NCBI GenBank assembly: GCA_902790215.1
Contig: CADAQX010000019.1
Coordinates: 1-40,964, forward strand
Source: an uncultured Bacteroidota bacterium
GTDB lineage: Bacteria > Bacteroidota > Bacteroidia > Bacteroidales > P3
Direction of reading: 5' to 3'
DNA length: 40,964 bases
Shown: positions 1-9,838 of the stretch, piece by piece
How the letters are laid out: every line of letters starts with the position of its first letter
How positions within the stretch are numbered: the stretch's first letter is position 1
The notes under the pieces: generated by a model
Seen by the model: the letters and a program-made list of their open reading frames with translations, nothing else
Told to the model about the DNA's origin: nothing
The model's database searches: none
Translations under genes and position numbers: made by a program

Positions 1-243
1 AGCACCGGCCTGCAACGAGCCGTGCACGGCGCCGGCGGCACCGGCCTCGCTCTGCATCTCCACGACCTTCACGGTCTCGCCGAAGAGGTTCTTACGACCC
101 GCAGCGGCCCACTCGTCGATGTACTCGGCCATAGGGCTGGACGGGGTGATAGGGTAGATAGCTGCTACCTCGCTGAACATGTAGGCAACGTGTGCTGCCG
201 CGCAGTTGCCGTCACATGTCATAAATTTTTTGTCTTTTGCCAT
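1..243 (-). CDS. nifJ: Pyruvate:ferredoxin (flavodoxin) oxidoreductase, N-terminal part
   Basis: Only the first 81 codons lie in the window; the gene runs off the left edge. The protein begins [13 protein letters not shown] and continues through [18 protein letters not shown], the start of domain I of pyruvate:ferredoxin oxidoreductase, including the YPITPSS motif near residues 31-37. The enzyme oxidises pyruvate to acetyl-CoA and CO2 and reduces ferredoxin or flavodoxin in the cytoplasm of anaerobes. The ATG at 243 is preceded by a TTAAACGTTTAA palindrome (248-259) shared with two orphan copies at 3642 and 6191. Unlike those copies, this gene no longer has the TATTTTTG promoter upstream, and dprA ends only 62 nt before it. 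It may therefore be transcribed from the recQ-dprA operon or from a weak new promoter. The family call is firm. Confidence 0.93.
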
Positions 244-267
244 AAGCTTAAACGTTTAAGGATTAAT
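143..267 (-). repeat. nifJ 5'-end repeat, copy A (functional gene)
   Basis: This 125-nt segment (nifJ codons 1 to about 35 plus 24 nt of leader) is about 92% identical to 3542-3666. The two form direct repeats flanking the recQ-dprA pair. The leader part, including the TTAAACGTTTAA palindrome, recurs a third time at 6192-6214. Similarity stops at 267, and the -7/-33 promoter found in the other copies is missing here. Confidence 0.88.
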
Positions 268-305
268 TATTGAATTTAGTGAATTATATTTCTCAATACA
301 ACAAT

Positions 306-1454
306 CTAAAGCATTAAAGATAGTTGGGTTGGGCGTTTTGTTGACAAAAGGGAATATTTTGTGGATTTCCCTTCTTTTATTTTGTTAATATTTTTCATCT
401 TTGATAAGATACTCGACATTTTTTGTATGCTATAATTCGACAGGTTCAATCCATCAATAATCTGTTTTGAACTATAAGTTCCCTTGGAAAGAAAATCATA
501 AATCCTATCCTCAATGCTACTATCATTGACTGAGGGAAGGGTGACTGTAAAATTTAACTCAACATCTTTCTTCCGAATAGATTGAATAATATATGCATCA
601 TTCCCCTCAATATCAACGGGGGCTGCTCCCATAGAAATCAGAATCTTGTTTGCGCATTTCTCTTTTTTTTCAGGTACTCTTACATATACTTTCCTTCCTT
701 TTTTGAGCCCCTCTGTAACACCACTCCAAGTTCCACCTTTGTCGTCGGATTGTGCAGCATAGATTTCAGAGGCCAGACCATAGATAATGGAGTTTCTTGC
801 CATTGCTAAATCCACGCTCCACGGCAATTTAGGATGGAAAGTACTTAATACTAGTACATCGCCTCCGACTATTTGCTTATAGTATTTCTTGATACCAGAA
901 GAAAAAGTCGTTATGCCCTGGGGCAACACAATTATACTTTGACCTTTATAAGCTAACGCTGAATCAAGGGCCTGTTTATCAACTCCTTTTGCAAATCCAC
1001 TAACAACCACCTTGTATTCCATGGATGCTTTTTTTGCAACATTGTCAGTGAATTTCAAAGAATTTTCATTAGCATTCCTTGACCCAACAATGGCTATAGA
1101 CTTTTCGTGCAGAATTTGTTTGTTTCCTTTTGTATACAAAACTATCGGAGAACTATATTTTAGATTGCTTTTTAAGGTAGGCGAATACTCTTGCGATGTT
1201 ACAGGGATTATATCGAATCCTTGATCAAGTAGTTCCTCCACCATAAATGCATAATTAGCAAGCTCTGACTTCGTTTGTTGCAACAATACAGCCTCCTGTG
1301 GGGTAAGACTCATTCCAAGAAACTGGTCGGATGAAAAGAAATCAACGATGGTTTTCTCACGTTGAAAGCAATATGCTATAATTTCATTTTTTCTTGCAGT
1401 CCACATTTTGGGAGTATGTGCAAGAGCAACCCAATATGTCAATTCTTGATTCAT
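306..1454 (-). CDS. DprA/Smf-like Rossmann-fold protein, partner of RecQ-PRTase
   Basis: A 382-residue protein with the DprA (DNA_processg_A) Rossmann core: IAIVGSRNAN at 120-129, VSGFAKGVD at 151-159, LPQGI near 177-181, and a later GGTWSGVTEGLKKG stretch. The C-terminal 70 residues (about 312-372) look like a small winged helix, as in many DprA proteins. Classical DprA binds ssDNA and loads RecA during transformation. This protein is divergent and lies in an accessory cassette, so a role in natural competence is doubtful. Its ATG overlaps the recQ stop by 4 nt (ATGA), which indicates translational coupling. DprA-domain proteins act as the antitoxin-like partner of phosphoribosyltransferase proteins in the ShosTA defence system, and the upstream protein here carries exactly that domain. 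The family call is strong; the defence role is inference. Confidence 0.85.
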   Translation of the reverse strand: MNQELTYWVALAHTPKMWTARKNEIIAYCFQREKTIVDFFSSDQFLGMSLTPQEAVLLQQTKSELANYAFMVEELLDQGFDIIPVTSQEYSPTLKSNLKYSSPIVLYTKGNKQILHEKSIAIVGSRNANENSLKFTDNVAKKASMEYKVVVSGFAKGVDKQALDSALAYKGQSIIVLPQGITTFSSGIKKYYKQIVGGDVLVLSTFHPKLPWSVDLAMARNSIIYGLASEIYAAQSDDKGGTWSGVTEGLKKGRKVYVRVPEKKEKCANKILISMGAAPVDIEGNDAYIIQSIRKKDVELNFTVTLPSVNDSSIEDRIYDFLSKGTYSSKQIIDGLNLSNYSIQKMSSILSKMKNINKIKEGKSTKYSLLSTKRPTQLSLML

Positions 1455-8924: not shown

Positions 8925-9626
8925 TTAATCAGTCGGTTTACCAGTTTTATAGCCTATCCGTTTTCGTGGTGTTGTGGGTTTCTCACGCAGTTGGTCGAGG
9001 GCATCGTTGATGGCTTCTATCTGGAGGGCTATCTCTGTGTTGGTCTCCTCCTGCATGCGGTTGATGTCGTTCTGGTCGTGCAGGATTTCCTCCACATAGT
9101 TGTTCAGTTGGTCCACTTTGTGCGACAGTTGCTCTACCTTCAGGTTCACCCCTTGCCATGTACTCACCGCATGGCGTATCGCCATAAACGCCCGCATGAT
9201 GTTGATGTTGACTTGAATTGCCGTTTCCGACCGCAGTACCGAACTCAACATTGCAATGCCCAATTCGGTGAAAGCATAAGGAAGTGCTCTATCACCACCT
9301 CTGTTTGAAATCACAAATTGTGATTTCAAACTATCGCCATTAGTGGCAACATCTTTATTATCAGCAGTAGTAGCATCATTTTTTGAAATCACAATTTGTG
9401 ATTTCAAAAATGTCCACTCATTCTTATTCAGTCGAAACAAAAAGTCATCGGGAAAACGGTCGATATTACGTTTGACAGCCTGATTCAAGGCACGTGTTTC
9501 CACCCCATACAGCTCCGCCAAGTCGCGGTCGAGCATGACGCGCAAACCACGCACCTCATAGATGCGATGCCTGATAACCTCAACTTCTGAAGCTACATTG
9601 GTCGTTATTTCATTCCCGCTCTTCAT
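8925..9626 (-). CDS. ORF6N domain protein
   Basis: 233 residues. The ORF6N DNA-binding domain spans about 15-145 (YEVRGLRVMLDRDLAELYGV, KRNIDRFPDDFLFRL, YAFTELGIAMLSSVLRSE). A coiled coil follows (about 165-215) with a basic tail. The domain is interrupted by a duplication: LKSQIVIS and LKSQFVIS flank a Thr/Asn/Asp-rich linker, where typical members have one copy of this phrase. Each copy is encoded by a 27-nt DNA palindrome. ORF6N proteins come from phages and often accompany RhuM-type genes, as here. A captured nifJ-type promoter (9693-9724) lies 67 nt upstream and is the likely driver. Function beyond DNA binding is unknown. Confidence 0.82.
   Translation of the reverse strand: MKSGNEITTNVASEVEVIRHRIYEVRGLRVMLDRDLAELYGVETRALNQAVKRNIDRFPDDFLFRLNKNEWTFLKSQIVISKNDATTADNKDVATNGDSLKSQFVISNRGGDRALPYAFTELGIAMLSSVLRSETAIQVNINIMRAFMAIRHAVSTWQGVNLKVEQLSHKVDQLNNYVEEILHDQNDINRMQEETNTEIALQIEAINDALDQLREKPTTPRKRIGYKTGKPTD
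9304..9408. repeat. Two copies of a 27-nt palindrome inside the ORF6N gene
   Basis: Near-identical perfect palindromes at 9304-9330 and 9382-9408 with arms TTTGAAATCACAA / TTGTGATTTCAAA. They are coding, are separated by 51 nt, and sit at the duplicated LKSQ(I/F)VIS phrase. Confidence 0.9.
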
Positions 9627-9680
9627 TGGCGTTGTGTATAATTCTTTAATAGATACAACAATACGTCGCGTATAATACTA

Positions 9681-9811
9681 TACGTGAATTTACAAAAATA
9701 CGAAAATAAAATGGAGTGATGAAAATTATTTTTCAAACCAACAAAACCAACTGATAATATGGGCCCCTAAACTTCAATATACCGTCCTGCACTAAAGCCG
9801 TTTTTGAGTTC
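9681..9811 (-). repeat. nifJ-promoter junction repeat, copy D
   Basis: Matches 3691-3820 with few changes: phosphoesterase 3' end, spacer and promoter. The nifJ leader and codons are replaced by the ORF6N leader, so the break lies between promoter and nifJ. Confidence 0.87.
9693..9724 (-). promoter_or_regulatory. nifJ-type promoter captured by ORF6N
   Basis: Minus strand TTTC (9721-9724), 20 nt, TATTTTTG (9693-9700), with the same boxes and spacing as copies B and C. The next start codon downstream is ORF6N at 9626. Confidence 0.68.
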
Positions 9812-9838
9812 GTTGATGCAACCATCAAGCGTCGTCAT
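9767..9838 (-). pseudogene. 3' remnant of a second metallophosphoesterase
   Basis: The last codons read ELKNGFSAGRYIEV-stop, against HLRNGFNAGLYIEV-stop in the intact gene at 3776. Protein similarity with several silent changes shows descent from a working homologue. Codons upstream of about 9811 no longer match and merge into a dispersed intergenic repeat. Confidence 0.75.

Follow-up and report, generated by a model that had tools for sequence, protein, structure and literature searches.

nifJ as a probable hub for the exchange of accessory gene cassettes between species of uncultured Bacteroidales

The 40,964-nucleotide contig CADAQX010000019.1 of an uncultured Bacteroidota bacterium (Bacteroidales, GTDB lineage P3; assembly GCA_902790215.1), hereafter the window, begins inside nifJ, the gene for pyruvate:ferredoxin oxidoreductase, and carries upstream of it an array of accessory genes interspersed with partial copies of the nifJ junction. 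An initial annotation, made from the sequence alone, had attributed these copies to serial homologous recombination with divergent strains at the nifJ promoter and 5' end. Comparison with other genomes of the genus indicates that nifJ is probably a recombination hub, at which cassettes bordered on either side by nifJ pieces are inserted by additive homologous recombination, and this between species.

According to the mechanism that we propose, accessory and largely defence-type cassettes would lie between a truncated nifJ piece and the intact gene, which would serve as homology arms for any related nifJ. For upstream cassettes the leader and first codons would form the left arm and the gene the right arm; for downstream cassettes, the gene would lie at the left and a 3' piece at the right. 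The route of DNA entry and the order of events are presumed here: after transfer, ordinary recombination in both arms, presumably RecA-dependent, would add the cassette beside the recipient nifJ, donor sequence would overwrite part of the recipient gene, and the old gene end would be left as a remnant. Because nifJ pieces would again border the product, the process would be repeatable, arrays would grow outwards from nifJ, and the same junction would travel with its cassette while left neighbours change. Each piece-cassette junction would have been founded by a rare illegitimate joining, and nifJ would become the last gene of the cassettes' transcript, since array genes are nearly all co-oriented with it.

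Partial nifJ junctions in the window

A direct-repeat search, together with blastn using copy B as the query, recovered the four partial copies of one nifJ junction that the initial annotation had described, each keeping the portion that had been assigned to it and all lying on the minus strand. Copy A (131-277) consists of the leader and nifJ codons, and its nifJ frame runs on to window position 1. Copy B (3530-3817) holds every component, namely the 3' end of a phosphoesterase gene, a putative promoter piece, the leader (3645-3666) and nifJ codons 1-35 (3642-3537). Copy C (6183-6290) keeps the putative promoter piece, the leader (6194-6215) and three nifJ codons, while copy D (9677-9808), at the outer edge of the array, has only the phosphoesterase 3' end and the putative promoter piece, without the leader. 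The label promoter is that of the initial annotation and agrees with what we take to be the Bacteroidales consensus. Identity to copy B is 91% for copy A, 91% for copy C and 95% for copy D. The leader of copy A, ATTAATCCTTAAACGTTTAAGC (246-267, minus strand), holds a 12-base palindrome, and the palindrome TTAAACGTTTAA is present in the leaders of copies A, B and C. Searched in the whole genome of the same organism with up to three mismatches, the leader sequence TAATCCTTAAACGTTTAAG occurs three times, always inside the window (reversed control pattern, one match).

The copies separate three unrelated accessory blocks, as had been claimed: PsyrTA (306-3496), placed between copy B and the running nifJ; a phosphoesterase/AbiEi block (3776-5990); and a WG/RhuM-fragment/ORF6N block (7230-9626). 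That the repeats might be assembly duplicates, the objection raised at the outset, is not borne out, as they differ by 5-9% within one contig and comparable arrays are found in assemblies of other accession series. Because copy B is closer to the native nifJ junction of another species (G068, locus L047; 97.3% identity over 259 bp) than to copy A of its own genome (91%), copy B and its phosphoesterase end probably belong to a block that came with a foreign nifJ end. An RNA element or riboswitch in the leader was rejected, as an Rfam search of window positions 1-10000 at an expectation value (E) of 0.5 gave a single sub-threshold match, outside the leader.

Homogenisation of nifJ between species

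What recombines is nifJ as a whole, a gene that is homogenised between species and mosaic. Divergence was compared in 14 genomes with complete rpoB and fusA and the nifJ 5' part, out of a set of 19 (rpoB in 15, one of them partial), giving 91 pairs. Mean divergence at 4-fold degenerate sites was 0.197 for nifJ codons 1-270, compared with 0.511 for fusA and 0.572 for rpoB; nifJ was less diverged than rpoB in 84 of the 91 pairs and than fusA in 81. With fusA as the only reference gene, the 19 genomes gave 0.208 for nifJ and 0.526 for fusA, nifJ being lower in 158 of 171 pairs. The pair G134 and G141 differs by 1.0% in nifJ, 22.8% in fusA and 22.0% in rpoB, and in one genome, G102, nifJ is not homogenised. 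Distances over all sites correlate between fusA and rpoB (r 0.76), whereas those of nifJ correlate with neither (r -0.14 with fusA, -0.06 with rpoB). Five same-genus pairs from other families served as controls (ten pairs were searched, six had one fusA each, and G149/G263 was left out); their nifJ/fusA ratios of 0.92-1.12, near 1, speak against strong codon preference as the cause of the low nifJ divergence.

Tree comparisons agree with these distances. On the nifJ alignment, the approximately unbiased (AU) test rejected the fusA tree (p 5.5e-5) and the rpoB tree (p 8.7e-5). The fusA and rpoB alignments likewise each reject the tree of the other gene (p 1.4e-4 and 0.002), with differences of 58-84 log units compared with 585-873 for the nifJ tree. 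Nearest neighbours switch along nifJ, as in a mosaic gene. Recombination at the locus, as proposed in the initial annotation, is thus supported, whereas its confinement to the promoter and 5' end is not.

That conserved nifJ reads glue unrelated contigs together, in an assembly or binning artefact, is very improbable. Many contigs do stop within nifJ, and 50 of 120 genus genomes (35 of the 62 more complete ones) gave a NifJ match at 1e-20; across the order, 137 of 149 genomes gave one at 1e-60. Near-identical, shared nifJ probably breaks metagenome assembly. Set against an artefact, G008, G012, G015 and G024 each have nifJ and fusA on a single contig, and nifJ is the less diverged gene in six of the six pairs among these, which likewise speaks against misbinning; moreover, the same modules occur in assemblies of different accession series.

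Unrelated flanks and polar remnants

Homology between species ends close to the gene. Across nine genomes, nifJ can be aligned at 91-94% per 500-base bin. Past the stop codon homology is lost within some 300 bases, a stretch over which some pairs are partly aligned; between 300 and 2000 bases past the stop only G015-G001 of 36 pairs aligned, and further out scattered matches appear in up to 6 of 28 pairs. Homology in the 3 kb upstream averaged 0.043, with none of 91 pairs above 0.3, compared with 0.61 in the controls (five of five above 0.3). The corresponding downstream values were 0.029, with one of 36 pairs above 0.3, and 0.39 in the controls (three of five).

Within these flanks, nifJ remnants are distributed by the side on which they lie. 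Those upstream derive from nifJ nucleotides 1-1148, one short piece (L043) being inverted, and those downstream from nucleotides 2277-3534. Among 13 genomes with at least 2 kb of downstream sequence, four (G012, G024, G076 and G105) have nifJ 3' pieces behind downstream cassettes, the genes between nifJ and these pieces being of restriction-modification or AAA type. Upstream sequence of up to 20 kb was available as 40 stretches from 39 genomes (one a side contig) and 18 more, 59 with the window, and no nifJ 3' piece was found in these 59 stretches at E 1e-4; L052 has one 29% tblastn match, on the opposite strand, in what by eye resembles another oxidoreductase. This distribution bears on Campbell-type insertion of circles followed by decay, which should leave 3' pieces upstream too: the 59 stretches speak against it, and a weak upstream match in G105, described below, speaks for it. 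The remnants end at variable points (codons 3, 12, 35, 44 and beyond; upstream up to nucleotide 1148), so that no constant crossover point in nifJ, of the kind used by staphylococcal cassette chromosomes (SCC) or integrative and conjugative elements (ICE), was found. G076 possesses two complete nifJ copies on two contigs, 98.6% identical over 3774 bp and with different upstream modules, possibly an intermediate.

The model of serial homologous recombination with divergent strains therefore stands as regards recombination with divergent relatives, but was too local, as the phenomenon is genus-wide and cassettes also lie downstream, with nifJ 3' pieces. Plain replacement would make no repeats, so that an additive form of the model is needed, and part of the repetition may be intragenomic copying.

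Two further observations concern nifJ pieces. Inverted pieces of 34-41 bases, ending near codon 12, occur in G023, G117, G122, G128 and G025 (L034, L043, L042, L041 and G025:C177). Each sits some 150-200 bases upstream of a nifJ copy, and the leader of four of these copies is diverged; the leader array of G023 is 22 kb away, and a chromosomal rearrangement with one end at codon 12 is possible. Separately, a dispersed hairpin repeat (GAAGAAA..CCAGTGG..TTTCGATAGCGAAGCGGAGAAC) with co-varying stem arms was seen in 25 cases in the 59 stretches, some within nifJ remnants, at codon 3 and near codon 18, and others elsewhere (in oriented stretches, L031 14766-14840 and 15818-15940, L046 15782-15870 and L039 12254). 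With one mismatch allowed, the core of the repeat matches 1-10 times in each of six genomes.

Shuffling of cassettes and re-use of junctions

Gene order changes at the leader repeats. When the same gene family was compared in two genomes, the next gene was kept in one of 46 comparisons with a leader repeat following the gene in either genome and in 19 of 57 without one (Fisher 3e-5, the comparisons not being independent). This test left out the ORF6N family and pairs in which nifJ follows both genes, and decayed repeats found by blastn were counted as repeats; with ORF6N included, the next gene was kept in 1 of 124 comparisons with a repeat and 47 of 790 without. Relatives carrying other cassettes, with breaks at these repeats, were what the initial annotation had proposed to look for, and they were found.

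Individual junctions recur as well. In L031, L035, L038 and L051, with L046 alike, a Bro-N gene stands behind one and the same nifJ piece, 12 codons long and continued by identical bases, and L038 carries a second copy of this junction; the left neighbour is a different one for each of the five Bro-N genes. Other shared piece-cassette junctions comprise a RhuM unit in three genomes (L031, L032 and L047), Fic in two and AAA_15 in two. PsyrTA follows a nifJ 5' piece in four genomes (the window, G142, G061 and G083), the exact junction differing there.

These recurrences bear on one-sided events, in which homology-facilitated illegitimate recombination would put each cassette independently beside nifJ and the remnants would have no later role. 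Variable remnant ends fit this account, as do the compact joins of about 6-11 bases between cassette stop and nifJ 3' piece in G012 and G105. We nevertheless consider it improbable, because one and the same piece-cassette junction is met in several genomes, each time with another left neighbour, which argues that existing junctions are re-used.

Content and layout of the arrays

The arrays are nearly uniform in orientation, and their left boundaries are compact. Among array open reading frames (ORFs) of at least 150 residues, 113 are oriented as nifJ and 3 are opposite. Of 75 leader copies, 42 have the stop codon of an ORF (70 codons or longer) no more than 60 bases away, and 37 of these 42 ORFs could be assigned, to 27 families. 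Thirty array proteins were searched with Pfam and 10 of them with PADLOC. The domains found include Bro-N, RhuM, KilA-N, HNH, Fic, WG, AAA_15/21, CoiA_N and SLFN_AlbA_2, together with EcoRI and its methylase, MvaI/BcnI, another type II enzyme, PDDEXK_13 and others, and six of the 30 proteins had no Pfam match at E 0.01. Many array genes are known or candidate defence genes, the PDC names denoting candidates only. Restriction or methylase genes are present in some units only (L056, L060 and L061 upstream; G024 and G076 downstream). An ORF6N gene behind a promoter piece is often the outermost array gene; 49 of the 102 ORF6N matches in the genus lie up to 20 kb upstream of a nifJ anchor and on the same strand, with no others within 20 kb of an anchor, a count in which the downstream side is under-sampled, many contigs ending inside nifJ.

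Such genes might spread by homing: a cassette protein (ORF6N, Bro-N, KilA-N, RhuM, HNH or a restriction enzyme) would cut cassette-free nifJ near its ends and repair would copy the cassette along with adjacent nifJ sequence, the homogenised nifJ being the co-conversion tract. The HNH, PDDEXK_13, EcoRI, MvaI/BcnI, Bro-N, KilA-N and RhuM domains among the proteins examined are consistent with this, and so is the upstream, same-strand position of about half of the ORF6N matches, subject to the sparse downstream sampling. The PsyrTA, AbiE-like, Fic and WG cassettes, in contrast, have no known homing nuclease in the searches made, and the varying piece ends do not point to a single cut site. Homing thus seems unlikely to us.

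Another possibility is integron-like, site-specific recombination at the leader palindrome, in which an enzyme encoded elsewhere would excise cassettes as circles and insert them. The sharp left boundary beside a stop codon, the shuffling of modules at the repeat and the co-orientation of 113 of 116 array ORFs would all agree with it. However, no tyrosine integrase was found within 20 kb of nifJ in 35 genomes, a search that did not extend to serine recombinases and transposases; Phage_integrase has 105 matches in 34 of these 35 array genomes, only one of them on an array contig, 27 kb from nifJ (G119). The observation in the initial annotation that no integrase is present at the locus therefore holds for tyrosine integrases. 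In addition, the right ends of the pieces vary, downstream arrays bear 3' pieces, which hold no leader, and the homogenisation of the whole gene would be left unexplained. We regard site-specific recombination as quite improbable, a little more so than one-sided joining.

Three array genes or groups deserve a separate mention. The SLFN_AlbA_2 gene of L045 (G092; oriented 17012-18795) seems to begin at the nifJ start codon (leader, ATGGCAA, new gene), as though it had been joined to the translation start of nifJ. Downstream of nifJ in G024 (L209, 3469-8233), a HATPase protein, an MTaX1-domain protein and a C5 DNA methylase lie between nifJ and a nifJ 3' piece, and this trio is possibly an uncharacterised defence system. 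One internal ORF of 259 residues in L062 resembles an insertion sequence (IS) transposase by eye.

Distribution across the genus

The repeat phenomenon is genus-wide and not peculiar to the window genome. A nifJ 5' query matched 70 of 120 genus genomes and gave at least two matches in 31 of those 70, counting all matches at E 0.001, some of them short or inverted and the two of G076 being complete gene copies. The leader pattern, with one mismatch allowed, is present in 54 of the 120 genomes, with at least two copies in 18 of these (reversed control, 0), and nifJ codons follow at least one leader copy at all 54 leader loci except G029 and G133. At the ends of G029 (L115) and G083 (L240) lies a gene starting MASEKKIDPSLKLISEY, which comes after leader-like sequence in G029 and after PsyrTA in G083; no nifJ was seen on these two contigs. 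The exact pattern was found in 41 stretches of a named genome collection, all from uncultured Bacteroidales/Bacteroidetes and, where a source is named, always from a ruminant. A phage origin of the repeat was rejected, no viral contig carrying the leader-start pattern. The plasmid collection gave five partial nifJ matches at 73-79% identity. The DNA nifJ query gave at most one match in each of 24 genomes of other families, hence no sign there of wider spread at the DNA level.

Observations at odds with the proposed hub

Several findings weigh against nifJ as a recombination hub with additive insertion. The sample holds one genome per species, and no gain or loss was seen happening. The left arms, about 36-133 bases of nifJ and leader, are short for efficient recombination, which by itself does not account for the compact left boundary, with stop codons within 60 bases of the leader in over half of the copies. 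A constant left junction for PsyrTA as a unit was not confirmed, the exact bases of the junction not being conserved in the four genomes. L064, L067 and L068 have no accessory run directly upstream of nifJ, and downstream flank homology is 0.00 even in two of the five control pairs. Polarity is not strict in G105, in which one downstream nifJ 3' piece is inverted and a 26-codon stretch about 4 kb upstream of nifJ weakly matches the NifJ C-terminus (tblastn E 9e-5). The double nifJ of G076 may reflect a strain mixture (contamination 4%). Finally, leader copies are more alike within genomes (0.956) than between them (0.905), a difference reached by 4 of 2000 shuffles, which suggests that some repeats arose by internal copying or conversion within a genome.

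A bolder proposition, to which we give about as little weight as to homing, is that nifJ is a self-spreading vehicle. Cassettes with nifJ arms would cut or outcompete cassette-free nifJ and be copied over it in a drive-like manner, producing one genus-wide nifJ pool as the remaining parts of the genomes diverge, and linked restriction-modification or toxin-antitoxin genes would make loss of the locus costly or lethal.

Relation to known systems and significance

The closest parallels to a recombination hub at nifJ combine some of its features. The minimal mobile element of Neisseria holds different whole-gene cassettes at one site in each strain, through homologous recombination in conserved genes and without an integrase, according to the available part of PMC3898611. 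Different whole-gene cassettes at one site in relatives are likewise found here. Whereas the minimal mobile element, as described in that part, sits between two conserved genes, only nifJ is constant here, the 3-kb flanks being unrelated on both sides. At nifJ, moreover, cassettes are added on either side, with leftover pieces of the anchor gene between them, and the species among which exchange takes place have diverged by about 18-20% in fusA and rpoB. As to homologous recombination as the sole route, a distance of 20 kb around the gene holds no tyrosine integrase, and nifJ undergoes recombination across species; no event was observed. Hotspots driven by recombination without mobile elements show accessory-gene turnover and raised recombination in flanking core genes (Oliveira et al., PMC5635113, in the portion available); stacked partial copies of the flanking gene do not feature in that portion, and at nifJ the flanking gene is homogenised between species.

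Insertion of restriction-modification genes with long, variable target duplications (on the order of 100 bp) and no known mobile element has also been reported (Nobusato et al. 2000, as cited in the accessible text of PMC3874152). Inserted genes flanked by long direct repeats of the target are common to that case, so far as that text describes it, and to nifJ, at which, unlike there, the same target is used repeatedly, by many gene types and on both sides; nor is the inserted unit at nifJ a restriction-modification system as such, only some units carrying restriction or methylase genes. Homology-facilitated illegitimate recombination, with homology at one end and illegitimate joining at the other, could found a junction (PMC3240628, in excerpt); as a single event type it leaves the re-used nifJ junctions unexplained. 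The core defence hotspots of Pseudomonas aeruginosa resemble nifJ as chromosomal sites with exchangeable anti-phage systems (PMC10250203, part of the text). Integrons differ in having a tyrosine integrase near the array; at nifJ the nearest is the one at 27 kb in G119. The literature searched, a partial view of the field and often in the form of extracts, contained no published description of a nifJ hub, and the combination of a single homogenised core gene, two-sided arrays and polar remnants appeared in none of the related papers found there.

If nifJ does act as such a hub, defence genes would cross species borders without a dedicated mobile element, a near-identical core gene providing the homology lost elsewhere in the genome. 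The arrays suggest a signature for finding other hubs: a core gene that has diverged anomalously little between species, stands in unrelated surroundings and has 5' remnants on its upstream side and 3' remnants on its downstream side. The uncharacterised array genes beside nifJ are a place to seek new defence systems in rumen Bacteroidales. There is also a warning, as nifJ is a bad phylogenetic marker in these bacteria and a spot at which metagenome contigs break.

Genes of the window

The array genes described here, nifJ and the GDSL lipase gene are on the minus strand. The nifJ 5' end (1-243, ATG at 243-241), cut by the contig start, matches NifJ codons 1-81, and a NifJ query of 369 residues against the window's own assembly matched at these codons only. 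The adjoining cassette, which the initial annotation had called dprA/recQ, does contain these genes, and its identity is the two-gene system PsyrTA: psyrA (DprA-like, 306-1454; PADLOC PsyrA E 1.1e-76, PF02481), with its stop 38 bases ahead of the copy A leader, and psyrT (RecQ helicase and phosphoribosyltransferase, 1451-3496; PADLOC PsyrT E 3.8e-255). The two homologues stand side by side, their ORFs overlapping at 1451-1454.

The second block was described as AbiE-like plus phosphoesterase. A calcineurin-like phosphoesterase (3776-4558; PF00149, E 2.4e-14) and an AbiEi-type regulator (5409-5990; PF09952 AbiEi_2, E 3.7e-22, above its cut-off) were found, and the ORF between them, in the AbiEii-partner position (4555-5415), matched nothing in Pfam or PADLOC at E 0.001. 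Pfam confirmed the genes of the third block, in which the supposed RhuM gene is a fragment of 110 residues (8540-8872; Pfam and PADLOC, PDC-S05/S23 candidate). It lies between a WG-repeat protein (7230-8387; PF14903, E 1.3e-8) and the ORF6N protein (8925-9626; PF10543, E 4.5e-34; candidate PDC-S05), the outermost array gene, directly after the promoter piece of copy D. Within the ORF6N gene, positions 9304-9408 hold two near-identical, palindromic 27-base copies (TTTGAAATCACAAATTGTGATTTCAAA) covered by a sub-threshold microRNA match. The first gene beyond the array encodes a GDSL lipase (10166-10867; PF13472, E 3.9e-24), and a tandem 27-base repeat of ACGGGCATCCTGCCCGTCAA type lies at 12496-12630, in a large ORF outside the array.

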